A stretch of DNA of 34,388 bases from a virus, in IMG/VR virus record IMGVR_UViG_3300029319_000214, positions 1 to 34,388 of that record. One strand, 5' to 3'. Of the stretch, positions 21,201 through 34,388 are shown piece by piece (the first letter of the stretch is position 1; each line of letters opens with the position of its first letter). The position numbers were made by a program, and so were the translations under genes. Below the pieces are notes generated by a model. It saw only the letters and a program-made list of their open reading frames with translations, was not told the origin of the DNA and made no database searches.

Positions 21201-21397
21201 CGTACTTCACCGCCATCTTTGGATGAATGTACATAATAACTTCCTGTTCTTCTGGTAATACCTCCTTGAGGGAAGACCACCATATTCTGCAAGGTTTGAA
21301 CCCCTGCATTATATTTTTGTAAATCAACTCTTCCTTCTAATCTGGGTGTCAACTCACCTGATTGGAAGTTGGTAACAATGGTTGATACTCGTGCCAT
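18260..21397 (-). CDS. Tail tubular protein B (nozzle) with inserted E1-FCCH-like repeats (1045 aa)
   Basis: The N-terminus (VSTIVTNFQSGELTPRLEGR, YNAGVQTLQNMVVFPQGG, RRTGSYYV) is the signature of the podovirus nozzle family (T7 gp12), which closes the tail and attaches fibres. Mid-protein family features follow, such as 'SRNGFPRAVAFYEERLFFAG'. T7 gp12 is 794 residues; the extra length comes from inserted beta modules. Three units share 'HG(Y/F)..(G/N)D...I..(I/V)VGMT..N...' at about residues 108-172, 655-720 and 727-790, like the FCCH domain of ubiquitin-activating enzyme E1. It lies directly after tail tube A (one intervening base) and overlaps the next gene by eight bases. Confidence 0.85.
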   Translation of the reverse strand: MARVSTIVTNFQSGELTPRLEGRVDLQKYNAGVQTLQNMVVFPQGGITRRTGSYYVHSSKDGGEVRLVNFEFGADTASEEPVSYVLEFGLNYIRFYNDEEILTEATKSISAITAANPAVVTASSHGYSNGDRVFIKGIVGMTELNNREFTVAGATTNTFQLSGIDSSAFTAYSSGGTSGKIVEITTTYTVAQVKELTFAQSADVMFIAHRSHAPAQLTRTTATSFTLADVDFVDGPYEDENIGTTTITSDANTGTVTLTASADLFASSDVGSLFRFRDIVEVQHDAWSTSDNYSQNDLVRHNGNVYKKTDAGSGESTGAQAPVHTSGSEVYGNHTWQFQHSGTGFVKITAVASATSATAVVQNNSVNGNINTLVLPKNATDGTTRWSRGAFSSRNGFPRAVAFYEERLFFAGTTAQPQSIFGSVTDDFTNHSPGTNDDDAINVTIASDQVNVIKHMIPGRFLQILTTSAEFTLSGGTQGAAVTPTSVNVLRETTFGTSNVRPLRAGASTILVQKSGEKVKEVTFDLNTDGLVGRDLTILGEHLAKGGLIDMVWQQEPELILWFVRSDGVLIGLSYDPANNTVGWHQHPFGNSGVVESVTSIPSGTEDQVYLSVKRTINSSTVRHIVYLKSFNFEQKIRNAFFLDSGVTFQNTAKTITGVSLSTDQVSSVTIDHQTLTVTSSSHGFSNGDTVIIEDVVGMTELNGDSFTVFNSQTNTFELANPATKSIKSITKANPANINIDNHGFATNDQIAIFDIVGMTTVNNTGVIVTKVDDNNFTIGVDLSAASGFPSAKVNNGSGISSGATVIDIDTVSGTISTGMVVTGTNIASGTTVVALAGQSKITLSTGTTGAIADDADLVFLPNSGVVRKATNGTPFTTYISGGEVRKKISSITGVNHLEGETVAVLVDGASHADKTVTNGNITLDRSGGVIHVGYNFDSLVETLRMEAGADDGISQGKIKRIHGVTARFIDTVGAETGPDLNNLDRMPFRDSSMPMDGAIPLFNGDKEIFFPSGYDNDAQVIIRQNQPLPMTILAIMRRSNTFDA

Positions 21398-21398
21398 A

Positions 21399-21995
21399 TC
21401 ACACTCTTACGTCAATAAACTCGCTCGATGTTAATCTATCTGGTACACCTTCCATTGCATCCATAGCTTTGGCTTCGGATAATCGTGCTTGGTATAACTG
21501 AAATATCTGACCTGATAGCGATGCACTTCCTGTTATGGCATAGGCAACTTCCGATGCCAGTTTGTGTGCTATCGTGCTTGAGAGCAAACTATCATATTCT
21601 TCGGTATCGGTTACTCGTGCGACATAGATAATTTTACAGGCTGTTTCATCTGATAATACTTTTCTTCCTTCTATTTTAAACATGACCTGTGTTTCGTAGG
21701 CAGCAATGTCTTGATTAATACTGTCAGTAAAGAATGATAAGACACGCAAACAAAATGGGTCAGTAGGAAGGGAAAACTGATTGGTAAATCCAAATGCTGG
21801 GGTAGCAGAGTCTTTAGCAAGAGTTGCTCTTCGTATCGCTGAGTTCCAAGGGTGAGAGCGTAATACTTGGTCTCTTACGGTAGTAAATCTTCGATTGCAG
21901 AGTTTTGCTTCTTTGGAGTTTTCATCAAGAGATGTAATGGTAGCTGCCCCTAATAAATCCATAGCTTCATTACAAATATCAACAACAGAAGACAT
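21399..21995 (-). CDS. Tail tubular protein A (head-tail adaptor, gp11-like)
   Basis: A 198-residue protein, the same size as T7 gp11 (196). It begins SSVVDICNEAMDLLGAATI, followed by 'CNRRFTTVRDQVLRSHPWNSA', the hallmark block of the gp11 adaptor family (a bundle of helices attaching the tail to the portal), and later 'LASEVAYAIT' with a C-terminal helix. Located between the terminator after the capsid genes and the nozzle gene, the standard order. Strong ribosome site (AGAGGTGAG) upstream. It forms the ring between portal and nozzle. Confidence 0.85.
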   Translation of the reverse strand: MSSVVDICNEAMDLLGAATITSLDENSKEAKLCNRRFTTVRDQVLRSHPWNSAIRRATLAKDSATPAFGFTNQFSLPTDPFCLRVLSFFTDSINQDIAAYETQVMFKIEGRKVLSDETACKIIYVARVTDTEEYDSLLSSTIAHKLASEVAYAITGSASLSGQIFQLYQARLSEAKAMDAMEGVPDRLTSSEFIDVRV

Positions 21996-22018
21996 ACTCT
22001 CACCTCTTAGTAAAGGAA

Positions 22019-22036
22019 GGGCAGATTGCTCTGCCC
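22019..22036 (-). terminator. Intra-operon terminator after the capsid genes
   Basis: GGGCAGA (22019-22025) and TCTGCCC (22030-22036) form a 7-bp perfect stem with a TTGC loop. On the minus strand it is followed by TTCCTTT, a moderately U-rich tract, and starts nine bases after the stop of the 169-aa gene. It would partially stop transcripts after capsid genes, allowing their higher expression, as the terminator after T7 gene 10 does. Confidence 0.7.
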
Positions 22037-22044
22037 CTCACAGT

Positions 22045-22554
22045 TTAGTTTACAACATACTCAATCACGAAAGATAAATCACCAGCCGTGTCTCCTGCTG
22101 CATCGAACAATAATCCGATGAACAAGTAACCACCTGGGTCTGATGTTTGACCAGCATCTTCCCATACTCTCTGACCTGTTGTGTTTATGTTTCGTGCTTC
22201 ATAGGTAACATCTGTTCCAACACCACCTACGGCTGCACGAAGGTCAGTGATTGCAGACGCATAGGCATCATCATCCAGTGCGGTAAATGTTCCGTTACTT
22301 TCCGAATACACACCTACGTCACAAGTGTTTGTTGTACCAGAATCCAAGTCATCGTTAAATAACTTGATGGTTACAATTGCTGCATTTGAAGGAATAGGAG
22401 CAAGCATCACTGTATCTGTGGCAGATAAATCACCAGCAGCTAGTGCGATTGTTCCCATTGCTACTCGCTTCACGCCATGCAAAGTCCTAGATGGGGATGC
22501 CACCTGGGGCAATGCCAACATGTTGGAAACGAGGGTTGTGTTTACATTAGCCAT
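22045..22554 (-). CDS. Virion protein following the capsid, possible capsid decoration (169 aa)
   Basis: Not firmly recognised. The sequence is low in Lys and rich in Ala, Val, Thr and Asp with alternating hydrophobics (ATDTVMLAPIPSNAAIVTIK, GDLSFVIEYVV), indicating a mostly beta fold. It follows the major capsid gene by 17 bases with a good AGGAG site and ends just before the terminator, so it is made at the same high level as capsid. Position and composition suggest a capsid decoration or head-associated protein; this is inference from context. Confidence 0.6.
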   Translation of the reverse strand: MANVNTTLVSNMLALPQVASPSRTLHGVKRVAMGTIALAAGDLSATDTVMLAPIPSNAAIVTIKLFNDDLDSGTTNTCDVGVYSESNGTFTALDDDAYASAITDLRAAVGGVGTDVTYEARNINTTGQRVWEDAGQTSDPGGYLFIGLLFDAAGDTAGDLSFVIEYVVN

Positions 22555-22571
22555 TTTCTAATCTCCTACTC

Positions 22572-23450
22572 TTAATCTGGTGTTTCATCACAGAAGATTT
22601 TAACGACTTTGGACTCTTCCATCCGCACCGCGCCAATGTCCATACAATAGTACACTTGAGTTGCATAACCTTTATCGTTACGCTCATCAATTCGTGCAGA
22701 GACATCTTTGCCAATACCAAGTGTAAGCCCATCTTCAGCCCATGCAAAGCAGGAACGAATATCATTTGAATCAACATCTAGGCGATTTGTCATGATAAAT
22801 TCAAAGCCTAAGAAGGAATTTACATCCCCTTGAGCTAATGCTTTTACCGTGTTGAAGTCTGAACTGGTCACCTGAGTTGTGCCTAGTAAATCTTCAATTT
22901 GCTTTGGCCCTACTGCAATGTAACGTGGTATTGAAGGGTCAACATCATTTAAATCCAGCTTACGTTTTGCTTCAAGCAATTTGGCTATGGTCAAACCATC
23001 ATTTGATGATGCTGAACCTACCATATTGTTTGTTGCGTCAAGTGTTGCTGAACCTGAACCTGTTTCACCTGTTGATGCTGTACCAAGTGCTGCATCGATA
23101 ATCACATCATCCATTGCACGACCCATAGCTGCTGCTGCGGCTTGTGCATAAAAAGATGTTGGGTCAATTAACATACGCACCTTATCTTGGTCATCGATTA
23201 AATCGGCATACTCATAGGATGCTAAACTTAATCTACGTCTTGCATGAGGGGTATCAAGTTGTGGTGTATCGGCATGGCGAGATGTACGCAGTTGCGCTGT
23301 TGCCTTACCTATTTGGTCTATAAATGCGTTCTTACCGACAACATTCTCAATGCGAACTGCATCACGCAGACGGCTGCCCATCTGTTGTGACAGCATTTGC
23401 ACATTGGCAGAATACTGTTGTACGAACGCGGTTGTGACTTGTGAAGACAT
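22572..23450 (-). CDS. Major capsid protein (292 aa)
   Basis: A 292-residue protein located between scaffold and tail tube genes. It begins with 'SSQVTTAFVQQYSANVQML', consistent with the N-arm and early helix of HK97-fold capsids, followed by 'RRRLSLASYEYADLIDDQDK' and 'AAAAMGRAMDDVIIDAALG', which resemble the long spine helix region of podovirus capsids. The 'GLTLGIGKDVSARIDER' and 'YATQVYYCMDIGAVRME' strands near the end match the last beta strands of the family. Strong AAGGAG site 7-8 bases before the ATG. Some T7-like capsids are about 340 residues, so this is a compact version. Confidence 0.85.
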   Translation of the reverse strand: MSSQVTTAFVQQYSANVQMLSQQMGSRLRDAVRIENVVGKNAFIDQIGKATAQLRTSRHADTPQLDTPHARRRLSLASYEYADLIDDQDKVRMLIDPTSFYAQAAAAAMGRAMDDVIIDAALGTASTGETGSGSATLDATNNMVGSASSNDGLTIAKLLEAKRKLDLNDVDPSIPRYIAVGPKQIEDLLGTTQVTSSDFNTVKALAQGDVNSFLGFEFIMTNRLDVDSNDIRSCFAWAEDGLTLGIGKDVSARIDERNDKGYATQVYYCMDIGAVRMEESKVVKIFCDETPD

Positions 23451-23478
23451 ACTATACTCCTTCTTTCACAAATTGCGT

Positions 23479-23718
23479 TTATACTGTTGTCGATGTGCTA
23501 CCCTTACGGACACCTCTAGGCTTTTTAGTTGCCATAGAACTATCGTCTATCCGATTGTCTTCAGGACGATGTAAATCGCTACCCTTAACAACCCAACCCC
23601 AAAGCACGTCTGCTTTGTCTTTTAGCTGGTTCGTATCTAAAATATCTCTATTTGCACAGGTTTGCAAGAGATTACATATTAATTCGTTTCTGGCTAGAAC
23701 AAATGACTCTTTATCCAT
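23479..23718 (-). CDS. Unknown 79-aa protein between scaffold and capsid
   Basis: Not recognised. It begins MDKESFVLARNELICNLLQT, a helical segment, has 'DKADVLWGWVVKG' in the middle and a basic Thr/Ser-rich C-terminus (MATKKPRGVRKGSTSTTV). It overlaps the end of the scaffold gene by eight bases (ATGGATAA) and lies 28 bases before capsid. A head-assembly accessory is likely from position alone. Confidence 0.55.
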   Translation of the reverse strand: MDKESFVLARNELICNLLQTCANRDILDTNQLKDKADVLWGWVVKGSDLHRPEDNRIDDSSMATKKPRGVRKGSTSTTV

Positions 23719-24547
23719 GTACCATTTCCATCAATTCACTTACACGAGATATGGCTCTTTGTCGTGCCACATAGTTCTTTTTATCGGTATATTCGGGTGA
23801 ATTCATAATTGCATCAATTTCTGCTTGTGCTTCAACAGGAGTTAGCTTGCGTGTTTGTGTTGCATCCGCAATTGTATCCTCACTTGTAGATTTATTTACA
23901 AAGTCTGCCATCTGCGAGAAGTATTTTATCACTCGTGGGTCATCGCCAAACTTCAAACCGCTTGCTAGTTGTAACTCATAAATATCAGAATCACCAAACT
24001 TACCAAGCAATCCTTTGACACCAGCCAGTTTATCTTCATACGCCTGACCCCATTCTTTTTTCAGATTGGTAATGGTTTCTTCTTTGAGACTTTCCTGTTG
24101 TCGGCTAATCTCTTCTTGTGATGTATTTACAGTCGATTTGTAATACTCCATCACACCGTTTACCTGATTAGGTGTTAGATTAAGTTTATGTGCTATACCC
24201 TTAAAATTACTAGCAATTTCTTCTGTTACTACGTTTCCATCTACGACAACATCGTACTTGTCGGCTGTTTCTGGTACACCTAGATACTGATGTATTTTAG
24301 TGAGTTGTTCTTCGGATGGGTTTTTGGGGGCTGCTAGTTTATCTGCACCGATGAGTTGTTGTGCATTCACATAGGATTTAGCAAGATTACCCACATCTTT
24401 TATGGGTGACAGGCTTGGATGTGAGCGTAATTCTTCTGGTAATTGGTTTAAGAAATCGTTACCAGAACCGCCTTGTGCTACCTCTGCTGGTGTTTCCAGT
24501 GTGGGTGTAGATGGCTGGTCTACCTGTTCGACTGCTTGTTCTTCCAT
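23711..24547 (-). CDS. Capsid assembly scaffolding protein (278 aa)
   Basis: Acidic, Gln/Glu-rich and mostly helical, with a low-complexity N-terminus (VDQPSTPTLETPAEVAQGG) followed by 'FLNQLPEELRSHPSLSPIKD', 'NLAKSYVNAQQLIG' and 'YLGVPETADKYDV', all typical of podovirus scaffolds. The C-terminal third holds a 'SPEYTDKKNYVARQRAISRV' helix that would contact capsid. T7 gp9 is 307 residues. It should form the transient core around which capsid assembles and then be lost. Placed between the portal-linked gene and capsid as expected; starts two bases after the upstream stop. Confidence 0.85.
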   Translation of the reverse strand: MEEQAVEQVDQPSTPTLETPAEVAQGGSGNDFLNQLPEELRSHPSLSPIKDVGNLAKSYVNAQQLIGADKLAAPKNPSEEQLTKIHQYLGVPETADKYDVVVDGNVVTEEIASNFKGIAHKLNLTPNQVNGVMEYYKSTVNTSQEEISRQQESLKEETITNLKKEWGQAYEDKLAGVKGLLGKFGDSDIYELQLASGLKFGDDPRVIKYFSQMADFVNKSTSEDTIADATQTRKLTPVEAQAEIDAIMNSPEYTDKKNYVARQRAISRVSELMEMVHG

Positions 24548-24549
24548 TT

Positions 24550-24801
24550 TTACTCCTTATTTATCATGTTTTTAATATGTAAGAAAACAGCACGTTTTCC
24601 TTCTTCAAAGGCAGATGCGTTGGCATCTCCTGATACATAGGTCGTTGTCATTGCATGACATCGATTGGCTAAATCATTAAAGACTTTTACACCGTTTTCG
24701 GATGTAAATGTCTGAGTATACATATCTCTGAGCTGTTCAATTTCTTGTTGTCTTCGCTCTTGTGTATAGGCTTCATTCTCAGTTTGCTGTGTTTCTGTCA
24801 T
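24550..24801 (-). CDS. Small head protein, Bbp19-like (83 aa)
   Basis: After a Gln/Glu-rich N-terminus (TETQQTENEAYTQERRQQE) comes 'FNDLANRCHAMTTTYVSGDA' and 'ASAFEEGKRAVFLHIKNMI'. This 'F..D....C........GD.....F.EGKR.V..HI' layout matches my memory of the Bbp19 family (from Bordetella phage BPP-1), small proteins coded between portal and scaffold, function not established. Its ATG overlaps the portal stop (TAATG), so expression is coupled to portal. Confidence 0.6.
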   Translation of the reverse strand: MTETQQTENEAYTQERRQQEIEQLRDMYTQTFTSENGVKVFNDLANRCHAMTTTYVSGDANASAFEEGKRAVFLHIKNMINKE

Positions 24802-26396
24802 TATTTGCTTACCATTCTTACTGCTTGTGCTGCTTGAGCGGTATCGGCTACATCTTGTGATAATGCTTCACGCTCTTGCATTGCTTGTTGCATTTCCTGA
24901 CGCTGTTGTCTCATCGCATCTACTTCACGTTGAGATTTCAATGTCATCTTTGGAACACCCAGACTATCGGTAATGTGTCTTACCAATCCATCTGGATCAA
25001 TATGGTCACCTACAGGCAGTGCCTGTGCCAACGGCATTAATATCTCTAATGCCTTCATAGTATTGTTCAAGCTGCTGGATTTTTGTGCCATAGCTAGTGG
25101 GGATACATATTCAATATCTACATCTCTTCCTTGTATTAATGCTGGTGCTGGTTGCAACATATCGGCTCGTAGCATTAAAGCAAACACACGGTCTATCAAT
25201 GGACGTAGCATTTCATTCATTAATCTTCCAAGAACAGGGCCAATGACTCGCATCCGCTCTTCTTGTCTTTGTATGACTTCGGTTGCTGTCATGTTTGGAG
25301 AACCACCAACGAGTATCTGGTCTACATAAAAGGCAGAGCGAATGGCCTGTCTTCGTTGTTCTTCCATACTTAAACCTACATTGGTATTGCTACCTGTATT
25401 CAAAGGCGTGATGGTATCTCGTGTGCCAGAGCGGTAGAAGTTTAAACCGCCAGGCTGTGTTCTAACAGGCAACATAAAGCCATCATCAGGAACAAGCAAC
25501 GGTGGGTCGATTTGTTTTTGCGCTGCCTGAATGATTGTTTTGCTCATCAGGTTTAACATTTTTACATCTGGTAATGCCGTCATCGCAGGAGAACGCCCCA
25601 TGATTTCACCTGTGCTTTTGAGGAATCTGGGTACGATGAACGGCATTTCTTCAAAGCCACCTTCGGATAATATCATCTGTGTTTTATTGCACACATACAC
25701 CGAAGCAAATGGCATATTCACATTATCTCGTTTAGTGATATCTCGTGTCATACGAGGGGTTACAATATGCAATATCTCAACTGGTTCTTCTGGATTCTTT
25801 TTAAATACCTTTGAAATATGCTCTCCGACATTCTCTTCTCCAAATCTCTGCACTGCTGCTTTGGCAGAGGATTCATACTTTCGATACACGGTATCCACCA
25901 TACCATGTAAATCTTCTTGTATGTAAAACTCAGAGATATGTCGTGTGGAACAACGAAGCTGATTATCTTCCCCCATTTCAATAAACATACAGCCTGTGCC
26001 AAACACAACTAAATCAACATATAACTCATGTACTTCAGTTTCAAAGTTTGATTGATTGAACAATCGCATCATCCGCATAGATGTATCTTGCAACCATTCT
26101 CGTACATCATCATCACGATTTATATCGGTTTCTTTTACATCCAGATGAAACCAAGGCGATGCACCGCTCGTCAGCATACCATGCAGAGACGATGCTAATA
26201 AATCAACCGCTTGCAATGCTGTTCCATCGAATATCTGTTCCATACGCTTTTCGCCTTTGGAACGCTTTTTAACAATCTCTGCTTTTCTGGGAAGCATGAA
26301 GTCAGCGAGTTCTTGGTAGTGCGTGTTCCATGTATCACGCTGGTCTTCTACATAATCAAACCGCTTGAGTAATGCTTTTAATTCTTCATCAATCAT
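24801..26396 (-). CDS. Portal (head-to-tail connector) protein (531 aa)
   Basis: Length and sequence match the T7 gp8 connector family (T7 gp8 is 536 residues). The N-terminus has 'ELADFMLPRKAEIVKKRSKG' and 'IFDGTALQAVDLLASSLHGM', then 'SGASPWFHLDV', the standard family blocks; later 'PFIVPRFLKSTGEIMGRSP' and 'EVIQRQEERMRVIGPVLGRL'. The C-terminal tail is Gln/Met/Ala-rich helix, as in other connectors. Twelve copies form the vertex through which the terminase packs DNA and to which the tail attaches. The start overlaps the polyproline gene by four bases (ATGA). Confidence 0.92.
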   Translation of the reverse strand: MIDEELKALLKRFDYVEDQRDTWNTHYQELADFMLPRKAEIVKKRSKGEKRMEQIFDGTALQAVDLLASSLHGMLTSGASPWFHLDVKETDINRDDDVREWLQDTSMRMMRLFNQSNFETEVHELYVDLVVFGTGCMFIEMGEDNQLRCSTRHISEFYIQEDLHGMVDTVYRKYESSAKAAVQRFGEENVGEHISKVFKKNPEEPVEILHIVTPRMTRDITKRDNVNMPFASVYVCNKTQMILSEGGFEEMPFIVPRFLKSTGEIMGRSPAMTALPDVKMLNLMSKTIIQAAQKQIDPPLLVPDDGFMLPVRTQPGGLNFYRSGTRDTITPLNTGSNTNVGLSMEEQRRQAIRSAFYVDQILVGGSPNMTATEVIQRQEERMRVIGPVLGRLMNEMLRPLIDRVFALMLRADMLQPAPALIQGRDVDIEYVSPLAMAQKSSSLNNTMKALEILMPLAQALPVGDHIDPDGLVRHITDSLGVPKMTLKSQREVDAMRQQRQEMQQAMQEREALSQDVADTAQAAQAVRMVSK

Positions 26397-26593
26397 TTTA
26401 TCATCGTGTTGCGTGTACCAGTATCCTGATTCAGTAATCCAGCCACAATGGTAGAGCCTCTGCCAACACGCCCTGCTCGTTGTCTTCTAACCCCTTCTTC
26501 AGCAAGGGCTGCGCCTAATTCCATATCTGGCTCTGGTGGTGGGGGAGGTGGGGGAGGTGGTGGTGGCGTACGAGGTGGACTTAGAAAACTCAT
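26393..26593 (-). CDS. Polyproline-containing small protein (66 aa)
   Basis: The protein starts MSFLSPPRT, continues with 11 consecutive prolines, then EPDMELGAALAEEGVRRQRA and a Gly/Arg-rich C-terminal half (GRVGRGSTIVAGLLNQDTG). It lies between large terminase and portal. The 'RR..G..G..ST...' C-terminus resembles small proteins found at this position in other podoviruses, with no known function. The proline run would stall ribosomes unless relieved by EF-P and may tune portal translation, as the gene's stop overlaps the portal start. I see no other function. Confidence 0.65.
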   Translation of the reverse strand: MSFLSPPRTPPPPPPPPPPPEPDMELGAALAEEGVRRQRAGRVGRGSTIVAGLLNQDTGTRNTMIK

Positions 26594-26604
26594 TTACTTT
26601 CTCC

Positions 26605-27894
26605 TTACATGGCAAAGGGATTATATTCATTGACAGCAACGGTTTGTGGTGGTCGTACCATTCGTGTTCTTTGCTCTAGCCCAGTTGCCAGATATCGAAA
26701 CGCATCGGCTGCATGAGATGTGTAATCATGTCGTGGATGGTCACGAAACACTTTCTTCTTATCATCCCACTCTTGTCGGTACTGTCGTAACATATCTAAA
26801 CCATCCTGTGTTTTATCTCTATCAAAAAAACACTTCGGTAGCAACATCCTTGTTGCATTGATACCATCTGCTACTTTCATGCGAGGTACTACCTTAAACC
26901 TGATACCCAGCGATAAAGCCGTCTCCAGACGCGATTTACCAGACCCAAGTTCTCTGACTTCGATGTCGTGTGGTGCGAGATGGTCACCGTATACGAAGTC
27001 TTTCCTGTTAAGAACTTCCGCATAGTGGTCGAGACCCACTCCACTGTTCTCGTAATAATCAATAATATGTATCGCACCACCACGATACGTCTGAGCAAAC
27101 CAAATAGCAGTCGCATCATTCACTCCTAAATCCCATGCTGTATGCACTGGCATTGAAGGGTCATAAGGCACTTTTGTTACTCTATCACTCTCTTCTGCCT
27201 CTGCAATCAGCTTTCCATAATACGCACCAATAATACTGGCTGTAAAGGAACATTCGTATTCTTGCTCAAACTGCTCCTCTGTCATTTGCTGTTTAGCAGC
27301 TTTTAACTCTTCGTCCTTTACAATACCACTCTCAGATGCCTTCACCGTTTTCCAATACCACTTGTCCGAGCCTTCTTCACATTCATTCTTTGCCTGTTGC
27401 AGTAAATCAAAAAAATGATTATGACCAGCAGGAGTTCCCAAAAATACAGCTGCCCCCTCTCTGTCAGACAAGGCTGGTCGTACTACCTCCCCCCATACTC
27501 TTGGATTCTGCATTCCATATTCATCAAAGATAGCCAAGTCTAGATAAATACCTCTCAAGGCATCTGGGTTCTCAGCAGACAACAACATCAGTCTTGCACC
27601 GTTGGGGAAATCTACTCGCAGTTCGGTTTCATTAAAGGCTACGCCTGGTATTACACTGGCATAATATTTTACATAATCCCACGCAATTCTCTTAGCTTGT
27701 GTAAATGTAGGGGCAATAAAAGCAACCCTTGGTCTGGGCAATGGACAGGTCAAACATTCTTTAATTAAATGATTAATTGCAAAAACAGTCTTGCCAAAAC
27801 GTCTGTGCATGACTAAAACATTCCAGCGTCTCAGGCTGTTATGCATTTCAGCTTGAGACGCACGAGGTTTATACGGTATCGTTACCTGTGCCAT
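26605..27894 (-). CDS. terL: Large terminase subunit (packaging ATPase/nuclease)
   Basis: The motor that pumps DNA into the procapsid and cuts the concatemer. ATPase domain: Walker A-like 'HRRFGKT' (residues 30-36) and Walker B 'LAIFDEYG' with Asp124-Glu125, then the coupling motif 'FLGTPAG' (about 151-157). Nuclease domain: 'HTAWDLGVND' with Asp255 and the last acidic residue in 'SHAADAFRYL' (about Asp397), as in the RNase H-like fold of terminase nucleases. The 429-residue length is on the short side of the family (T7 gp19 has 586). Overlaps the small subunit gene by 26 bases. Confidence 0.93.
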   Translation of the reverse strand: MAQVTIPYKPRASQAEMHNSLRRWNVLVMHRRFGKTVFAINHLIKECLTCPLPRPRVAFIAPTFTQAKRIAWDYVKYYASVIPGVAFNETELRVDFPNGARLMLLSAENPDALRGIYLDLAIFDEYGMQNPRVWGEVVRPALSDREGAAVFLGTPAGHNHFFDLLQQAKNECEEGSDKWYWKTVKASESGIVKDEELKAAKQQMTEEQFEQEYECSFTASIIGAYYGKLIAEAEESDRVTKVPYDPSMPVHTAWDLGVNDATAIWFAQTYRGGAIHIIDYYENSGVGLDHYAEVLNRKDFVYGDHLAPHDIEVRELGSGKSRLETALSLGIRFKVVPRMKVADGINATRMLLPKCFFDRDKTQDGLDMLRQYRQEWDDKKKVFRDHPRHDYTSHAADAFRYLATGLEQRTRMVRPPQTVAVNEYNPFAM

Positions 27895-28276
27895 CTGTCA
27901 TCCAAGCAATGTTAATCTCAGTATCTCCATTCTTCAACTGCATCATGGCTTTTGAAGTATCGCCAAACTCTTCTGGGTTACACTTTGACTCTAACCATCT
28001 ACTATGTACACCCATCTCCTTCAAAGCTATCACATCCACTTTAGCCGTACCAACAACAGCCCCAACCAGTAATTTCTCATAGTCACTTCTAAACTCAGAA
28101 GAATAACTACTCCTAGCCAATTGATATGCTTCCTTCAAATCCTGATTATCATTTAAATACTTGTAAAAGGTAAACCGACTTATACCCATACCCTTACATA
28201 TACTTGTAACCGTTATCCCATCCGATATCATCTTTAAGATAATATCTTCCTTCTTAGCTAACTTTCTCTTAGGCAT
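27869..28276 (-). CDS. terS: Small terminase subunit (DNA recognition)
   Basis: A 135-residue protein directly upstream of terL. Residues 8-45 form a helix-turn-helix (KEDIILKMISDGITVTSICK, then GMGISRFTFYKYLND), as in the DNA-binding domain of many small terminases. A helical oligomerisation region follows (AYQLARSSYSSEFRSDYEKL, then DVIALKEMGVHSRWLESK), and the tail overlaps the terL start. First gene of the late unit, with AGGAG six bases upstream of the ATG. It would select phage DNA and deliver it to TerL. Confidence 0.8.
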   Translation of the reverse strand: MPKRKLAKKEDIILKMISDGITVTSICKGMGISRFTFYKYLNDNQDLKEAYQLARSSYSSEFRSDYEKLLVGAVVGTAKVDVIALKEMGVHSRWLESKCNPEEFGDTSKAMMQLKNGDTEINIAWMTDGTGNDTV

Positions 28277-28425
28277 AGTTACTCCTGAGTGTGTGTTGGA
28301 TAGTATTGATTAACACATATACAGAGAGGTAGCGCAGGTCAGGGTGCATAGGTCTAAAACATACCCCCACTAGGCCTAAACTACAGATTGTGTGTGACTT
28401 TGTAAGGCCTGTCTGATGATATTTA

Positions 28426-28454
28426 TTTATAATACAACACATAAAAAATCTAAA
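28426..28454 (-). promoter_or_regulatory. Candidate late promoter
   Basis: On the minus strand TTTAGA (28454-28449; four of six matches to TTGACA) is followed by a 17-base spacer and TATAAA (28431-28426; five of six to TATAAT). It would start a transcript about 145 bases upstream of terS. The fit is moderate and such matches are common in AT-rich DNA. No phage RNA polymerase is encoded, so host sigma-70-type promoters are expected. Confidence 0.3.
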
Positions 28455-28525
28455 ATCTAATCCAGACAACAAAAACCTAATACCTGCATAATCCTATATA
28501 TCTATATTAACTATCATATATAATG

Positions 28526-28613
28526 TTGACAGTAAACATATATATTTAATTTATATTGATGTAAAAATATTTTACTCATAAGTGTTGACAATATGTTTTT
28601 AATGATATATCTA
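28526..28613 (+). promoter_or_regulatory. Candidate early promoters with two TTGACA boxes
   Basis: Perfect -35 hexamers occur at 28526-28531 and 28585-28590. Behind the second, TATATC at 15-base or TATCTA at 17-base spacing could act as -10. The second box lies in GTTGACAATATGT, identical over 13 bases to the element in the divergent promoter at 33422-33434, suggesting common regulation. It would drive the 44-aa gene at 28649 and the genes following it. Confidence 0.45.
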
Positions 28614-28648
28614 TTGTAAAATAACTTTACATGAAAGGATATAATACA

Positions 28649-28783
28649 ATGGATAGATTTTTAGTATTTTACACATATAGAGGACAAGAGCATAAAATTG
28701 TTATTTTAGCTAACAGTAAAAAAGATGCTCTTAAAGCTATGGATTATTACGACGTAGTAGATGCTTTTAACTTAGATGATTAA
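28649..28783 (+). CDS. Unknown 44-aa protein, first of the early unit
   Basis: ATG at 28649 after AAAGGA. The translation is MDRFLVFYTYRGQEHKIVIL, then ANSKKDALKAMDYYDVVDAF and an acidic end (NLDD). It looks like a compact beta-beta-alpha fold: two hydrophobic strands followed by an amphipathic helix. I do not recognise it. The ribosome site, position just after the candidate promoter and balanced codon use support it as real. Small first-expressed phage proteins of this size are often host inhibitors, but there is no direct evidence. Confidence 0.6.
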   Translation: MDRFLVFYTYRGQEHKIVILANSKKDALKAMDYYDVVDAFNLDD

Positions 28784-28810
28784 ACAACAAACAATAAAGG
28801 AAATAAAACA

Positions 28811-28894
28811 ATGAAAGATATACATTTACTTATCGGCGGCTCTATTACTATTCTTGGTTGGATGCTAGGCCTATACGTTTTAATAGTAATATAA
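28811..28894 (+). CDS. Tiny membrane peptide (27 aa)
   Basis: ATG at 28811 preceded by AAAGGAAATAAAACA, the same leader style as its neighbours. The peptide is MKDIHLLIGGSITILGWMLG followed by LYVLIVI: one membrane-spanning segment from about residue 5. Its very small size makes the call uncertain, but ribosome site, spacing and a clean hydrophobic profile favour it. Confidence 0.45.
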   Translation: MKDIHLLIGGSITILGWMLGLYVLIVI

Positions 28895-28962
28895 GGATAT
28901 AATACGAAGATAAAACAGAAATATTTTACAATTAATTTTTAAAACAATGAAAGGTAAAAACA

Positions 28963-29844
28963 ATGAAAAAAGATAGATACCAAATAATAACAGATACAGT
29001 CATTGAACAAATGGAAAACTTGGGAAGTGATTGGATGAAATCATGGTCAACTAATGCCATGTCAGGACATCATAACATTGTATCTAAAAAAGCTTATCAG
29101 GGAACAAATACTTTTTTAACGGCTATAAGTAGTTTCAAAAATGGGTTTCAGTCTAATGAGTGGGGAACTTATAAGCAATGGCAATCTAAAGGTCATACAG
29201 TTAAAAAAGGTAGCAAGGCAACTGATATAATCTTTTTTGATAAAATCAAAATAGAAGATGCAGAAACAAAAGAAGAAAGATTTATACCAATCTTAAAAGG
29301 ATTTTCTATTTTCAATGCAGACCAGATAGACGGTTACCAAACTCAAACACCAGAGATAGTAAAACCAACATTCAACCATGAACAAACAGAACAACTCATT
29401 GCTAATAGTCAGGCAATAATTAAACATGGTGGTAATCGTGCATTTTATACGACCGATGCAGACTTTATTCAAATGCCACATAAAACAGATTTTAAAGATG
29501 TTGACGGTAGCAATGCCATGCAAAATTATTACTCAACATTACTCCATGAACTAACGCACTGGACGGGCCACACTTCTAGACTAGACAGAAAACTAGCTAA
29601 TAAATTCGGTAGCAATGCGTATGCGTTTGAGGAATTAGTTGCAGAAGTTGGAAGTGTGTTTCTTACCGCTATGCTAGGTATTGAGAAACAACCGCAACCT
29701 AACCACGCCAAGTATCTTAATAACTGGTTGGAAGTATTAAAACAAGATAAAAGAGCAATGGTGAAAGCGTTTGGATTGGCCCAAAAAGCAAGTGACTATA
29801 TTCTTGCCTATCAAGATAGCAATAAATTGCAGGCCGCAGAATAG
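28963..29844 (+). CDS. ArdC-like antirestriction protein (zincin metalloprotease)
   Basis: Residues 1-125 match the ArdC N-terminal domain (single-stranded DNA binding): 'WMKSWSTNAMSGHHNIVSKK', 'YQGTNTFLTAI', 'WGTYKQWQSKGHTVKKGSKA', 'IFFDK'. The C-terminal part has the zinc motif HELTHWTGH (His195, Glu196, His199), then 'RLDRKLANKFGSNAYAFEEL' and 'VAEVGSVFLTAMLGI', as in the DUF1738/ArdC peptidase domain. Plasmid ArdC protects incoming DNA from type I restriction. This would defend phage DNA on entry, consistent with its early location. The length (293 residues) is full for the family. AAAGGT ribosome site upstream. Confidence 0.85.
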   Translation: MKKDRYQIITDTVIEQMENLGSDWMKSWSTNAMSGHHNIVSKKAYQGTNTFLTAISSFKNGFQSNEWGTYKQWQSKGHTVKKGSKATDIIFFDKIKIEDAETKEERFIPILKGFSIFNADQIDGYQTQTPEIVKPTFNHEQTEQLIANSQAIIKHGGNRAFYTTDADFIQMPHKTDFKDVDGSNAMQNYYSTLLHELTHWTGHTSRLDRKLANKFGSNAYAFEELVAEVGSVFLTAMLGIEKQPQPNHAKYLNNWLEVLKQDKRAMVKAFGLAQKASDYILAYQDSNKLQAAE

Positions 29845-29854
29845 CTTTTATAAG

Positions 29855-29885
29855 TAGACAGGTAGTTATCCATACTATCTGTCTA
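29855..29885 (+). terminator. Hairpin after the ArdC-like gene
   Basis: A 12-bp stem, TAGACAGGTAGT against ACTATCTGTCTA with one G-T pair and a 7-base loop, starts ten bases after the stop codon. It is followed by TGTATAAG, not a U run, so it may be a weak terminator, an mRNA-stabilising 3' end or a processing site. It precedes the repeated leader described at 29891. Confidence 0.5.
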
Positions 29886-29890
29886 TGTAT

Positions 29891-29952
29891 AAGTGCTAGT
29901 CAGTGCTTAAAACGCCAACAATGGCATAACTAAAAGAAAGGTAGAAACAATG
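29891..29952 (+). repeat. Repeated gene leader, copy 1
   Basis: This 62-base stretch ends at the ATG of the 89-aa gene and resembles 30261-30322, which ends at the ATG of the 75-aa gene. The core shared blocks are GCTTAAA, CGCCA and AATGGCATAA, followed by A-rich sequence and GAAAGGT. I estimate roughly 80% identity with one internal shift. It covers the ribosome site plus about 50 bases of 5' untranslated sequence, so a shared translational control element is plausible. Confidence 0.6.
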
Positions 29953-30219
29953 AAAGTCAGAAACATGAAATCAATTAGCGGTTCAACAATTAAGAATCAG
30001 TTTATCATTTTAGATGGTGAGTATGAATACTTTCAATCTTACAGCTCAGTAATTGCACAACGTCATATATCAAGCGGTGTTGTTAAGTTAGACAAAAACT
30101 ACTGGGATTATTCTATAACGACTGGCAAGTATCGCAACCAGTTTCTAGGTATGGATAAAAAGACCACCGAAAAAGCTATCAAGAATAATGAAATCATTTT
30201 AACAGATTTAAACGCCTAG
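29950..30219 (+). CDS. Unknown 89-aa protein, DUF8033-like
   Basis: The translation has 'MKSISGSTIKNQFIILDGEY', 'YFQSYSSVIAQ', 'VVKLDKNYWDYSITTGKYRN', 'QFLGMDKKTTEKAI' and 'EIILTDLN'. I remember the 'NQF.I..G...FQSY.S.I......V.LD...WDYS.TTGKYRN.FLG' block from short phage and plasmid proteins (DUF8033 from memory), which have no known function. It looks like a compact beta-rich domain. Preceded by the repeated leader and a good GAAAGGT site. Early-unit membership suggests host interaction. Confidence 0.65.
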   Translation: MKVRNMKSISGSTIKNQFIILDGEYEYFQSYSSVIAQRHISSGVVKLDKNYWDYSITTGKYRNQFLGMDKKTTEKAIKNNEIILTDLNA

Positions 30220-30231
30220 TGTTTATGATTG

Positions 30232-30253
30232 CCCCTAGTTTTATAGCTAGGGG
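30232..30253 (+). terminator. Hairpin after the 89-aa gene
   Basis: CCCCTAG (30232-30238) pairs perfectly with CTAGGGG (30247-30253) around TTTTATAG, 12 bases after the stop codon. No U tract follows (TAACGATAAG). Its position matches the hairpin after the ArdC-like gene, each standing just before a copy of the repeated leader, so hairpin and leader may form one repeated unit. Confidence 0.5.
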
Positions 30254-30260
30254 TAACGAT

Positions 30261-30322
30261 AAGCACCAGACGGAGCTTAAATCGCCACTAATGGCATAAT
30301 TAAAAAGAAAGGTGAGACAATG
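30261..30322 (+). repeat. Repeated gene leader, copy 2
   Basis: Counterpart of 29891-29952. Shared blocks GCTTAAA, CGCCA and AATGGCATAA are followed by an A-rich stretch with GAAAGGT just before the ATG of the 75-aa gene. One extra A before GAAAGGT shifts the alignment by one base near its end. Confidence 0.6.
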
Positions 30323-30547
30323 AATAATAAATTACTTAAATTAGTCGAACAATTACAAAAAGAAAAAACAGGACAAAGTAATCATCTAAAAATTTTAGAT
30401 ATTTGTTTTCAGATTTTTGGAATTGTAGGCGATGAAAAAATCGATAATGGATATTTCCATTTGAAAGAACTGGTTAGATCGCAAATAAAAATTAGTGAAA
30501 GAAATCTTATTGAATATTATAGAGAGCAAGCAGATGACAAAGTTTAA
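30320..30547 (+). CDS. Unknown 75-aa helical protein
   Basis: Starts MNNKLLKLVEQLQKEKTGQS, continues with 'LKILDICFQIFGIVGDEKID', then 'YFHLKELVRSQIKISERNLI' and a charged C-terminus. The whole protein is predicted helical by eye and could be coiled-coil in places. No known motif. Good GAAAGGT site in the repeated leader. The end overlaps the next small membrane gene by 14 bases. Confidence 0.55.
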   Translation: MNNKLLKLVEQLQKEKTGQSNHLKILDICFQIFGIVGDEKIDNGYFHLKELVRSQIKISERNLIEYYREQADDKV

Positions 30548-30692
30548 TATATTTATATCAATAGTTATCATGTTATTAGCAGTAGCCTTAATAGATTTTA
30601 TAATTATCAATTGGTTACTAGGATGTAACACTTGGGATAAGTCTTTGTGGACGGAATACAATAGCTGTTTTAATCCGTTTGATTTGTTCTAA
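30534..30692 (+). CDS. Small membrane protein (52 aa)
   Basis: Starts at the ATG at 30534, inside the end of the 75-aa gene. The N-terminus is a membrane segment (FNIFISIVIMLLAVALIDFI), followed by a Trp/Cys-containing outer loop (NWLLGCNTWDKSLWTEYNSC, then FNPFDLF). The stop overlaps the next start by one base (TAATG). I do not recognise it. Two Cys in the loop could form a disulphide if the loop is periplasmic; superinfection exclusion would be a reasonable guess for an early membrane protein but is not shown. Confidence 0.5.
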   Translation: MTKFNIFISIVIMLLAVALIDFIIINWLLGCNTWDKSLWTEYNSCFNPFDLF

Positions 30693-30895
30693 TGGCAAGC
30701 TATGAGGATGCTAAAAGAGAATACCTATATTTTGTAAGCCAAGATATGGGTATCGCTGCGATAGCCAAGCTTTTAGATATTCCAAGAATACAAATAGACA
30801 GTCCATTCAGTGAGAGAGAGGGACTTCTAACAGAAGAATATGTAATTAAAGAGATACAAAAACTATTAGAGAAAGGAAACCTAAACAATGAATAG
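30692..30895 (+). CDS. Unknown 67-aa protein
   Basis: The translation begins MASYEDAKREYLYFVSQDMG and has 'IAAIAKLLDIPRIQID' in the middle, then an acidic helix (EEYVIKEIQKLLEKG). The 'IAAIAKLLDIPRIQI' stretch has helix-turn-helix-like spacing, so a small DNA-binding protein is possible, but the fit is weak. It is coupled to the membrane gene (TAATG) and overlaps the next gene by eight bases. Confidence 0.5.
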   Translation: MASYEDAKREYLYFVSQDMGIAAIAKLLDIPRIQIDSPFSEREGLLTEEYVIKEIQKLLEKGNLNNE

Positions 30896-31028
30896 ATATC
30901 AAGAGAAAGATATTCAGGAAAACTGTGAATGTGGAATGGATGAAAATAACACATGGGATGACGATGTTTTTGATAGATTCGGATGTGATTGCAGAAACGA
31001 TACATTAATAAAGGAACAAAACGAATGA
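30888..31028 (+). CDS. Acidic 46-aa protein with two CxC pairs
   Basis: From the ATG at 30888, preceded by GAAAGGAAACCTAAACA, the translation contains 'ENCECGM' (Cys13, Cys15) and 'FGCDCRN' (Cys33, Cys35), separated by an Asp-rich stretch (NNTWDDDVF). Four Cys in two CxC pairs would suit a small zinc-binding fold. It overlaps the gene before by eight bases and the HTH gene after by four (ATGA). Not recognised; the frame is too short for most gene callers, but ribosome site and overlaps support it. Confidence 0.5.
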   Translation: MNRYQEKDIQENCECGMDENNTWDDDVFDRFGCDCRNDTLIKEQNE

Positions 31029-31201
31029 CTAAAAAACAATTCATGGAAATGAGAGAGAGTATGCAGCTTACTCGTATGCAACTAGCAGAGAAACTGCAAC
31101 TCACTCGAATGACGATATTCAATTACGAATATGGCAAGTATCCAATACCCAAGTCTGTAGAGTATGCACTAAGATACTTATCTTTAGAACTAAAGAAATA
31201 A
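31025..31201 (+). CDS. Small HTH regulator (XRE-type, 58 aa)
   Basis: Starts at the ATG at 31025 (overlap ATGA, with AAAGGA upstream); an in-frame ATG at 30989 lies inside the previous gene. Residues about 10-45 fit the XRE helix-turn-helix: 'MQLTRMQLAEKLQLTRMTIF' with Ala in helix 2, then 'NYEYGKYPIPKSVEYALRYL'. At this size it is a bare DNA-binding domain, like Cro. It may shut off early promoters; the palindrome at 33423-33437 and the related motif at 28584 are candidate operators. Confidence 0.75.
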   Translation: MTKKQFMEMRESMQLTRMQLAEKLQLTRMTIFNYEYGKYPIPKSVEYALRYLSLELKK

Positions 31202-31332
31202 GATTGTGCAATCTATATAGATTAGGTCTATACAGATAAGGTCTTGAAGATAAGACCCAGGTAAATAAGCAACCCAATCGCCTTTTTGATAGGCTCTGGG
31301 TTACTTATTTATAGAAAGGATGCGCACAATCT
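31201..31332 (+). ncRNA. Candidate structured RNA: closing stem around three hairpins
   Basis: AGATTGTGC (31201-31209) pairs perfectly with GCACAATCT (31324-31332). Inside lie hairpin A (31213-31221 with 31227-31235, one A-C mismatch), hairpin B (GGTCTT 31240-31245 with AAGACC 31252-31257), and the long hairpin C (31262-31311: outer TAAATAAG/CTTATTTA, one mismatch, AACCCA/TGGGTT, inner GCCT/AGGC). No U tract follows on either strand and no gene fits. It is not a tRNA: stem lengths are wrong and there is no T-arm sequence. It lies just after the HTH gene, between convergent units. The plus strand is a guess. Confidence 0.45.
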
Positions 31333-31422
31333 GACTAAAAGCCAGAGGATACAAACAGGAACACCCTATTGCACGCTACAATGAACTTAGTGACTATCAT
31401 ATTTTTTGTTGACACGCAAGCC

Positions 31423-31809
31423 CTAGAGAGAAAGGAGGTTTACCCAAGATTCTAGGGTAACAATCGCCACATCATTACCCTTATATTTATTGTTGATATG
31501 TTTAAGATAGAGAGCGCAGCGTATCGGTTGATGGTCAAACTTAAATATCAATACAGGCTTGTTTTTAGCCGCATCAGCCGCCTTTACTACCTGTTCCCAC
31601 CATTCCCTGCGGAAAAATCCGTTTGACGATTCTGGACGTTTATATCGCTTGCATTCGATTGTCCATCCGTCAACCCCAAGTAAGTCACCTCTATCAGCTT
31701 GTCTATATTGTTCGATATCTCTTTTGATATCTTGGAGAGAGAGGTGCAGTTTTAAATAGTTTGCAACCTCTCTTTCAAAACTAGCTCCTTTGTTGCGACC
31801 ATTAACCAT
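31423..31809 (-). CDS. Small PD-(D/E)XK nuclease, Holliday-junction-resolvase-like (128 aa)
   Basis: The fold signature is visible in order: 'NKGASFEREVANYL' with Glu in helix 1, 'RQADRGDLLGVDGWTIECKRY' with Asp of 'GDL' and the E-x-K of 'IECKRY', then 'EWWEQVVKAADAAKNKPVLI'. This matches Hjc/RecU-type resolvases and related phage endonucleases. It could resolve branched replication intermediates before packaging, which suits a phage relying on recombination. Alternatively it is the endonuclease partner of the adjacent methyltransferase. The start ATG overlaps the methyltransferase stop (ATGGTTAA). Confidence 0.75.
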   Translation of the reverse strand: MVNGRNKGASFEREVANYLKLHLSLQDIKRDIEQYRQADRGDLLGVDGWTIECKRYKRPESSNGFFRREWWEQVVKAADAAKNKPVLIFKFDHQPIRCALYLKHINNKYKGNDVAIVTLESWVNLLSL

Positions 31810-32878
31810 GATTTATATCTACAAACAAAGGTGAATCTTGATACAATCTATTATCAGCAATAGAAATATAATTTTTATTTAATTCTATTATTGTAGATTT
31901 TCTACCTAACCTATCAGCTACTAATGCAGTAGTACCAGAACCACCAAAAGGGTCAAGAACAGTGCCATTTTTAGGACACCCAGCTTGTATGCAAGGCTCT
32001 ATAAGTTCGGTAGGAAAAACTGCAAAGTGTGCTTCTTTATATCCTTTTACTGGTACAGTCCATACAGACCTTTTATTTTTTGTTTCATAAGATTTTTCAA
32101 GACCGCTATGCGGTTGCAACCCAGTACCTTCATTGTGATACTTGCCATTAACTCTGTCTCTTGTACCCCAATCAGTTGCCTTTTCTTTGATTGCTTCATT
32201 GTCGTAATAATAATTCTTATTTTTACTCAACAAAAATATATACTCATGTGCTTTAGTACATCTATCTTGCACACTTTCAGGCATTGGATTAGGTTTGTGC
32301 CAGATAATATCTTGCCTTAGATACCAGCCATCAGCTTGCAATGCAAAAGCCACTCGCCAAGGTATGCCGATTAAGTCTTTTTGTTTTAAACCCAATATTT
32401 TATTATTAACTGCGTGTTTTTGACCATTTCTGCCTTTGTATTTTGGGTCTATATGATTTGCCTTGTGACCAGTTCCACAATATGTGTCACCAAGATTAAG
32501 CCACAAAGTACCTTCATCTTTTAATACTCTTCTTACCTCTCTGAATACATTAATGATATTTTTTGTGTATTCCTCTGGTGTTTCTTCTAAGCCAATTTGT
32601 TTATCTTTTCTGATTGCACCACACTTTGGGCATTTTGTTTTATAAATTGCGTCAGATACAACATTACCTTGCTGTGCCATAGCTTTATGACCTGTAGCAG
32701 TATTCTTAGATATTTTAGTTGTTCTCATGTGTAAACAGTCTGAGTCACCACCTTCCCATGTGCCTGTTTGATAATCCCTTAATCCCCAATAAGGGGGAGA
32801 TGTTACACAACAATCTACAGATTTATCTGGCAATGTTTTTAATACATCTCTGCAATCACCAATTTTTATATCAACCAT
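31802..32878 (-). CDS. DNA amino-methyltransferase, beta-class (N4-cytosine or N6-adenine)
   Basis: A 358-residue enzyme with the catalytic motif SPPY at residues 27-30 ('CVTSPPYWGLRDY') and the AdoMet motif 'VLDPFGGSGTTALVADRLGR' near residue 313. Motif IV preceding motif I defines the beta order. SPPY is more usual for N4-cytosine enzymes, though phage N6-adenine enzymes have it too. An insertion after motif IV carries C48-x-H50 and C83-x-x-C86 (TKCPKCGA), like a zinc ribbon. The start is the ATG at 32878, overlapping the HTH stop by eight bases (ATGGTTGA); a longer frame to 32917 would run over that gene. It probably protects phage DNA from host restriction. Confidence 0.85.
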   Translation of the reverse strand: MVDIKIGDCRDVLKTLPDKSVDCCVTSPPYWGLRDYQTGTWEGGDSDCLHMRTTKISKNTATGHKAMAQQGNVVSDAIYKTKCPKCGAIRKDKQIGLEETPEEYTKNIINVFREVRRVLKDEGTLWLNLGDTYCGTGHKANHIDPKYKGRNGQKHAVNNKILGLKQKDLIGIPWRVAFALQADGWYLRQDIIWHKPNPMPESVQDRCTKAHEYIFLLSKNKNYYYDNEAIKEKATDWGTRDRVNGKYHNEGTGLQPHSGLEKSYETKNKRSVWTVPVKGYKEAHFAVFPTELIEPCIQAGCPKNGTVLDPFGGSGTTALVADRLGRKSTIIELNKNYISIADNRLYQDSPLFVDINHG

Positions 32879-33059
32879 GATAGAAATCATCCGCAGTAAC
32901 TTCACCTTTTGTGGCAATAAAGATTTTGGTAAGTGTTTCCTGACTTGGTTTGCGTTTGCCTTGTATTAACAAAGTAATCGTTGAGTTATCTAGCTTGGCT
33001 ATTTTAGCAAAATACCGTCTACTAATACCTCTTTTTTCTATGTAATCTTCTAGTTTCAT
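32871..33059 (-). CDS. Cro/CI-type HTH regulator (62 aa)
   Basis: The 62-residue protein (MKLEDYIEKRGISRRYFAKI ... NSTITLLIQGKRKPSQETLT) is a single helix-turn-helix domain of the Cro/CI type; 'SRRYFAKIAKLDNSTITLLI' would be helices 2 and 3. The start at 33059 overlaps the winged-helix gene stop (ATGA) and has AAGGAAG upstream. It sits directly before the methyltransferase, as controller proteins do in some restriction-modification systems and as Cro-like regulators do in phage switches. The divergent promoter region with its palindrome is the likely target. Confidence 0.8.
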   Translation of the reverse strand: MKLEDYIEKRGISRRYFAKIAKLDNSTITLLIQGKRKPSQETLTKIFIATKGEVTADDFYHG

Positions 33060-33376
33060 TGCTGTTCTTCCTTGTAATATTCTGTTGCCCAATGAATACG
33101 CTGTTGTCTATTTGAATACACACCCTTGCGAGTTCTACCATCTACCTTAATAAATCCTTTTTCAATCAAAGGTTTAAATCGTGGTGAGATACTACCTATA
33201 CGCAGTTTTGGTAATACAATATCCACTTGATCCATTGTAGCACCTGACTCACCAAAATGCCTGACCGCATTTAAAACTTCTTTCTCAAGTTTCGTTGGGT
33301 CTATTGATATAGCTGCATCGATAGATGTATCAGGGTCAGTAGTTCGTACCATTTTATATGCGTCTTTGTTTTCCAT
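33056..33376 (-). CDS. Winged-helix-like protein, first gene of the MTase unit (106 aa)
   Basis: I start it at the ATG at 33376 because AGGA lies eight bases upstream; earlier ATGs at 33382 and 33412 are too close to the site or fall within the promoter. Residues 20-85 look like a winged helix: 'DPTKLEKEVLNAVRHFGESG', 'MDQVDIVLP', 'GSISPRFKPLIEKGFIKVDG', 'RKGVYSN'. The recognition helix would be 'SISPRFKPLIEKG' with a wing after it. It is coupled to the Cro-like gene (ATGA). Probably a transcription regulator or a DNA-binding accessory of this unit. Confidence 0.65.
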   Translation of the reverse strand: MENKDAYKMVRTTDPDTSIDAAISIDPTKLEKEVLNAVRHFGESGATMDQVDIVLPKLRIGSISPRFKPLIEKGFIKVDGRTRKGVYSNRQQRIHWATEYYKEEQQ

Positions 33377-33405
33377 TTTCATTGTCCTCTCTGTTAGTTG
33401 ATGCG

Positions 33406-33451
33406 TTGACAATAATAGATGGTTGACAATATGTCAATAGTGTGAGATTGT
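33406..33451. promoter_or_regulatory. Divergent promoter and operator region
   Basis: Two direct TTGACAATA copies (33406 and 33423), the second part of the palindrome TTGAC-AATAT-GTCAA (33423-33437). On the minus strand TTGACA (33437-33432), a 17-base spacer and TATTGT (33414-33409) make a promoter for the winged-helix gene. On the plus strand TTGACA (33423-33428) with GATTGT 17 bases on, or the box at 33406 with ATATGT, would drive the exonuclease. The two promoters overlap, so one protein bound to the palindrome would control both. Confidence 0.6.
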
Positions 33452-33471
33452 ATGAAAGGAAGGAGAAAACA

Positions 33472-34338
33472 ATGACTGAATATAGAAAAGCATTTGGCAG
33501 TAGAGCCATGCACAACTCAGCATCTGGTGGTACACAACCACTCGATGAATACTTTTTAAAACTGTATTGTGACCATCATATGCAATTACCGTTTCCATCA
33601 TCAGCTAAGATGACCGCTGGTAACGCTGTACAACGACTCGTTGATTTATCTTTGGGTCTTACCTTTGATAAGAAAGAACCCATAGAGTTTGAAGAAGCAC
33701 AACGAATAGTAGAGCGTGAGTATAGTTTCTACAAACCTCGCACGTTTGATGATGGGAAAGATGCAGAGGAACACCAAGAGATACGACAACACATACATTC
33801 AACCGCAGTACAAGCACACAAAGGATTGAAAGAATATTTTGGCAGACAAACATTTGAAGGCGAGAAAAAAGAGTTCTTTGATGTGGATGACATTGATGTG
33901 CCAACCATGTATCTGATTGACTATCGCTCAAAGAAAAAAATGATAGATTTAAAAACAAGTTGGTCTATTCGCAATCCCATGAAAAAGGATGGCACTCGCA
34001 CTTGGCGTATACCCAAACCAGCCAAAGAGCCAAGCACAAGCCAAGTCTGTCAGCAAGCAGTATATTGGAAGGCAACAGGCTTAACACCAGCCCTATTGTT
34101 TTGCACCGCAGATGGCTACGAGATAGCCACACCAGAGACTACCGATAAACTATCTAACGAAAGTCTAGAGCATCATTACAATGTGGTGAAACAACGATGG
34201 TTAGTGATACAGAACATTATGAAAAAATCAAAGACCTTTGATGAAGCATTGCAGTTTGTATCACCAGACCTTGAGAGAATAAAAAGCTATCAAGGTAATG
34301 ACTTTTTAAAAATAGCAAAAGTAATATGGAGAATATAA
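33472..34338 (+). CDS. PD-(D/E)XK exonuclease (288 aa, allele B, complete)
   Basis: Start ATG at 33472, with AAGGAAGGAG just upstream; a longer frame begins at 33442 without such a site. Nuclease features: 'AGNAVQRLVDLSLG' (about 48-61), Asp150 in 'YLIDY', Asp159-Leu-Lys161 in 'MIDLKTS', and Gln194-x-x-x-Tyr198 in 'QQAVY', the Q-motif of RecB/Cas4-type exonucleases. It should resect DNA to give single strands for the annealing protein coded downstream across the contig join. It is the first gene after the divergent promoter. The truncated copy at 1-630 is about 92.5% identical and most likely another allele of the same gene. Confidence 0.8.
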   Translation: MTEYRKAFGSRAMHNSASGGTQPLDEYFLKLYCDHHMQLPFPSSAKMTAGNAVQRLVDLSLGLTFDKKEPIEFEEAQRIVEREYSFYKPRTFDDGKDAEEHQEIRQHIHSTAVQAHKGLKEYFGRQTFEGEKKEFFDVDDIDVPTMYLIDYRSKKKMIDLKTSWSIRNPMKKDGTRTWRIPKPAKEPSTSQVCQQAVYWKATGLTPALLFCTADGYEIATPETTDKLSNESLEHHYNVVKQRWLVIQNIMKKSKTFDEALQFVSPDLERIKSYQGNDFLKIAKVIWRI

Positions 34339-34388
34339 TGAATCAAGAATTACAACAACAAATAGATGTTATGGATATAAAACTATCT
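33709..34388. repeat. Right copy of the end overlap (allele B)
   Basis: Counterpart of 1-680 (offset 33,708). The window stops 77 bases after the last mismatch, as it starts 77 bases before the first. The substitutions are spread over the exonuclease gene, with 18 of about 51 in one 60-base stretch (34129-34188). Confidence 0.9.
34338..34388 (+). CDS. Coiled-coil protein, 3'-truncated (second copy of the gene at 630)
   Basis: The first 17 codons (MNQELQQQIDVMDIKLS) are identical in DNA to 630-680, and the start again overlaps the exonuclease stop (TAATG). It is cut by the window end. On the inferred circle this is the same gene as 630-803, not a separate one. Confidence 0.8.
   Translation, partial: MNQELQQQIDVMDIKLS

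Follow-up and report, generated by a model that had tools for sequence, protein, structure and literature searches.

A phage contig with two nuclease alleles at its ends, very probably a circular genome opened at a strain bubble

Short repeats at the ends of assembled viral contigs do not necessarily correspond to physical termini: in the CheckV paper, terminal repeats of 55, 77 and 99 bp were considered likely assembler k-mer lengths (PMC8116208). In a related manner, COBRA makes use of the end sequences of length maxK found at contig breaks for metaSPAdes and MEGAHIT, within-population variation having been studied as one of their causes (PMC10914622), and microdiversity or strain diversity is known to fragment the assemblies of HTVC010P-type pelagiphages (PMC6487183). 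The locus described here, on an ocean phage contig, the IMG/VR record IMGVR_UViG_3300029319_000214 (34,388 nucleotides, the whole of which is hereafter the window), resembles all three. Like the k-length repeats of CheckV (PMC8116208, Extended Data Fig. 3; circular templates), its ends share one assembler k (77) and would belong to a closed genome with no physical repeat; unlike them, it has, in the stretch bounded by the shared k-mers, two alleles that diverge from each other, and its ends are not an exact repeat. With the COBRA breakpoints (PMC10914622) it would share the cause and the overlap-length rule, but COBRA joins separate contigs, whereas the window holds both alternative arms in a single one. 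The fragmentation of HTVC010P-type assemblies (PMC6487183) concerns a related phage group and has coexisting strains as its driver, although in our case the genome would be nearly closed, with one unresolved bubble, and not fragmented. Terminal overlaps of length k are already documented by CheckV and COBRA, to which the form with diverged arms adds a minor variant, or a small extension. Nonetheless, it is a form that a test for exact repeats between start and end is expected to miss.

Our reading, to which we assign a probability of roughly 0.94, is that the contig follows an arm-backbone-arm path in the k=77 de Bruijn graph of a 33,708-bp phage genome, circular or circularly permuted, for which two nuclease alleles exist. 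The sampled population would carry two alleles of one nuclease gene, which differ by 51 substitutions over 526 bp and would give rise to a two-armed bubble in the graph, each branch point being a shared 77-mer. The path of the assembler would then run from arm A through the 33,182-bp backbone into the other arm, halting at a branch 77-mer that had already been used. The two gene copies would be alternatives from different phage genomes, and not two genes or terminal repeats of one molecule. We infer that the assembler was of the SPAdes type with K=77, that it chose a different arm at each end, and that both alleles co-occurred in one sample. The features on which the argument is built are the following:

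1..77, + strand: left branching 77-mer, identical to 33709-33785
1..630, + strand: 3' part of the nuclease gene, allele A, 209 codons (ORF, codon comparison, relatives)
78..603, + strand: proposed bubble arm A, spanning the variable region of the nuclease gene in allele A (end alignment, codon analysis, haplotypes of relatives)
604..680, + strand: right branching 77-mer, identical to 34312-34388
604..33785, + strand: shared backbone unitig, 33,182 bp, from branch k-mer to branch k-mer (de Bruijn graph)
772..1476, + strand: downstream ORF, 234 aa, with no Pfam or PHROG match, in the same position as a Sak-like annealing protein in C72C1
33442..34338, + strand: probable PD-(D/E)XK nuclease gene, allele B, complete, 298 aa (ORF, conserved residues, structure model, weak Foldseek matches)
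33709..33785, + strand: left branching 77-mer, second occurrence (end alignment, graph)
33786..34311, + strand: proposed bubble arm B, spanning the variable region of the nuclease gene in allele B (end alignment, codon analysis, haplotypes of relatives)
34312..34388, + strand: right branching 77-mer, second occurrence, and contig end (end alignment, graph)

When aligned end to end, 1-680 and 33709-34388 (680 bases each) show 0 indels and 51 mismatches, i.e., 93% identity, just as the initial annotation had described (no indels, about 51 substitutions). Its claim of identical flanks of exactly 77 bases is equally exact, since the first mismatch falls at position 78 and the last at position 603. 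Within the 526 bp of the variable stretch the mismatches (33 transitions and 18 transversions) are clustered, with 22 of the 51 lying in 401-500. By codon position, 41 are third, 6 first and 4 second, so that the description of the substitutions as nearly all at wobble positions is right about the majority and slightly strong in its wording (80%). Between the two copies there are eight amino-acid differences in 209 codons, the very number that had been estimated, with dN ~0.02, dS ~0.35-0.41 and dN/dS ~0.06. On these codon-level grounds, and with the variants being common to natural relatives, we agree with the earlier view that the differences reflect natural divergence under purifying selection and not error. 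That two unrelated contigs were fused into a chimera, or that the differences are sequencing errors, is extremely improbable: no point in its support was found, 80% of the substitutions are at third positions and common to natural relatives, and the backbone is colinear with those relatives on either side of the join.

Only two exact 77-mers are repeated in the whole window (1/33709 and 604/34312), and no 99-mers are. The end match is the only long direct repeat in it, the others being short, intragenic and located at 5.6-7.2 kb. Under a simple geometric model with a local divergence of 1-10%, flanks that both measure exactly 77 would arise by chance with a probability of ~1e-9 to 2e-5.

To examine the assembly reading, de Bruijn graphs with k = 55, 77, 99 and 127 were constructed for a pair of 33,708-bp circles, each carrying one of the alleles. 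At k=77 the graph branches at two vertices and consists of three unitigs (680, 680 and 33,182), and the path formed by A, the backbone and B equals the window letter for letter. The paths at k=99 and k=127 are longer and do not equal it, and the graph at k=55 differs, with nine unitigs and no reproduction of the window; among the four values, therefore, 77 is the only one that reproduces it. The window is exactly what the k=77 graph of two allele circles permits, which supports the proposal that a k=77 de Bruijn assembler would emit such a contig via a two-armed bubble. This equivalence is not fully independent evidence, as it follows largely from the 77/77 flanks. Together with the colinearity of relatives across the join, it agrees with the earlier claim that the genome closes at 33,708 bp and is circular or circularly permuted. 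The closed sequence is presumably a composite of strains and not one haplotype, given that the bubbles at other variant sites would have been collapsed.

The relatives provide a different line of evidence. For all 13 related marine IMG/VR loci found with the nuclease protein (~70-93% identity), a single unbroken alignment spans the predicted join, and each of these contigs has the nuclease gene once; in the circular record of phage C72C1, a relative of the nuclease is likewise followed by the downstream genes with no break. Among 23 larger relatives, one copy is present in 21, none in one, and in the remaining one (G015) the gene is split over both contig ends. This last record, IMGVR_UViG_3300022074_000207 (32,304 bp), has nuclease residues 11-101 at one end and ~232-297 at the other, the middle being missing, and looks like a nearly closed circle too.

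The most divergent block between the copies, 435-471, is informative about their nature: 11 close relatives carry there either the haplotype of the start copy (L004 and L007-L011, six relatives) or that of the end copy (L003, L005, L006, L012 and L013, five relatives), and never both, which indicates that the copies are segregating alleles and not a tandem duplication. In an exact search of IMG/VR, the haplotype core of allele A was matched only in the contig of L004, and that of allele B had no exact match in IMG/VR contigs, in a search that may omit the window's own record. If the nuclease gene had truly been duplicated within one genome, in tandem or at the termini, and its copies had later diverged, this would account for the purifying-selection pattern, which is what two functional copies would show. 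Nevertheless, such a duplication has very little chance of being the right explanation: the start copy is without the first 89 codons (which correspond to 33442-33708 once the sequence is circularised), two copies occur in no relative (13 loci and 23 larger relatives), the relatives have one haplotype or the other, and a duplication does not predict exactly 77 identical bases on both outer flanks.

A linear genome with physical direct terminal repeats, 680 bp long and diverged between the ends, is an even more improbable explanation. Such repeats are normally kept identical via replication through concatemers, whereas the ends here are only 93% identical; moreover, they cut through a gene that is uninterrupted at that place in the relatives. 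There is the precedent of a 125-bp direct terminal repeat reported for some HTVC010P-type isolates (PMC10504331), but that repeat is said to lie at TerL, and TerL in the window (26605-27894) is ~6 kb from the join. The tandem duplication, the physical terminal repeat and the chimera were thus rejected on copy counts, haplotypes, colinearity and the 77/77 flanks. Likewise, the claim of the initial annotation that the apparent terminal repeat is not physical is upheld by the 13 relatives, colinear through the join and with one gene copy each, and by the k-sized flanks.

Four-gamete incompatibility is extensive among the aligned relatives (Rmin 52 among 115 sites), a pattern that recombining alleles would be expected to produce. 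This recombination in the wider population would be compatible with terminal heterozygotes, in which co-infection and headful packaging of recombinant concatemers give real linear molecules whose one end has allele A and whose opposite end has allele B, a plausible outcome for a terminally redundant, circularly permuted phage. However, only a minority of the molecules would be of this kind, and they would give no contig ends exactly k bases away from the variable stretch; we regard them as a very unlikely source of the window in comparison with an assembly path through a bubble. As for the origin of the alleles, the haplotypes at residues ~236-246 (LLKKDS..HF vs KLSNES..HY) might be an old polymorphism shared across the lineages of the phage group, which recombination has disseminated and selection has perhaps maintained, e.g., by the host or a partner protein, although we hold this to be rather unlikely.

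The product of the gene is probably a RecB/Cas4/RecE-like PD-(D/E)XK nuclease, as judged from its motifs and its structure model. Residues E141, D160, D169-x-K171, Q204 and Y208 are invariant in 24 aligned sequences and make up the RecB-like pattern E...D...(D/E)xK plus QxxxY; the eight amino-acid differences between the alleles are all outside these motif residues. The AlphaFold2 model has a pLDDT of 91.7, and the top Foldseek matches are Cas4 (SSO0001), AdnA/B, RecE, RecBCD and MGME1, every one a member of the PD-(D/E)XK superfamily. The phage protein is like the exonucleases of the RecB/Cas4/RecE type in its motif residues and probably in its predicted fold, and unlike them in that it matches no Pfam or PHROG family and in that the Foldseek matches are weak (E 0.005 or weaker, TM <0.5); no relative turned up either when PDB sequences were searched with a profile. 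The name "exonuclease" for this product is reasonable and unproven. For the neighbouring ORF at 772-1476, an identification with the Sak-like annealing protein of C72C1 was considered and found no sequence support.

Ends of this kind are not exclusive to the window. Within 21 near-complete related contigs of 29-39 kb, the comparison of both ends gave five exact repeats (22, 99, 99, 115 and 123 bp, those of 99 in G007 and G016), nine imperfect overlaps and seven contigs with none. G002 has diverged ends (860 bp, 90% identity) with a left flank of exactly 77 and another of 95; in G011 the right flank is exactly 77 and the other 93; and G020 and G021 have flanks of exactly 127 and 55, respectively. 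The values 55, 77 and 127 are standard SPAdes k values, and the same kind of artefact recurs in the relatives, with a looser fit than in the window, as the opposite flanks are not all k-sized. The breaks with k-sized flanks fall in genes other than the nuclease, and no break hotspot was detected in the nuclease gene itself (6-8 of 37 contigs end inside it vs 4.4 expected, Poisson P 0.08-0.28). With nine imperfect against five exact end overlaps among these 21 relatives, a test limited to exact repeats may overlook many closed genomes. Virus catalogues could be screened in a simple way for imperfectly matching ends with exact k-mers shared at their outer edges. For the present record, which counts the nuclease gene twice and conceals the completeness of the genome, our reading amounts to a correction: a complete genome of ~33.7 kb, and not a 34.4-kb fragment with a duplicated gene.

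One of these relatives, G011 (IMGVR_UViG_3300030380_001480, 39,423 bp), has two structurally different large-protein cassettes, at 1-6424 (L254) and 33545-39423 (L255), which are bordered by the tail-fibre gene and by a conserved gene for an internal virion protein. They encode proteins of 1091 aa (phrog_342, internal virion protein) and 991 aa in one case, and of 1226 aa (phrog_9854) and 671 aa in the other. Here the same artefact seems to have brought together, in one contig, two virion-protein cassettes that are alternatives within a single population. The corresponding region of the window, 10539-17376, has a GC content of ~0.32-0.36 vs ~0.40 around it and contains three large genes (841, 579 and 858 aa), the first two being virion proteins by PHROGs.

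Regarding the phage itself, the best matches of TerL are Pelagibacter phages of the HTVC010P type (50-52.5% identity), which suggests a distant relationship to these pelagiphages; megablast of 20001-34388 against phage records gave no match. PHROGs identify terminase, portal, capsid, tail and internal virion proteins on the minus strand. The gene at 28963-29844 (+) has the N-terminal domain of ArdC-type antirestriction proteins (Pfam ArdcN) together with a metallopeptidase domain of the zincin-like type (Pfam MPTase-PolyVal), and at 31423-32917 (-) a RusA-like resolvase / PDDEXK endonuclease gene adjoins an N6/N4 DNA methylase gene. Finally, the 1362-aa tail-fibre gene contains internal direct repeats at 5603-6058 and 6591-7200.
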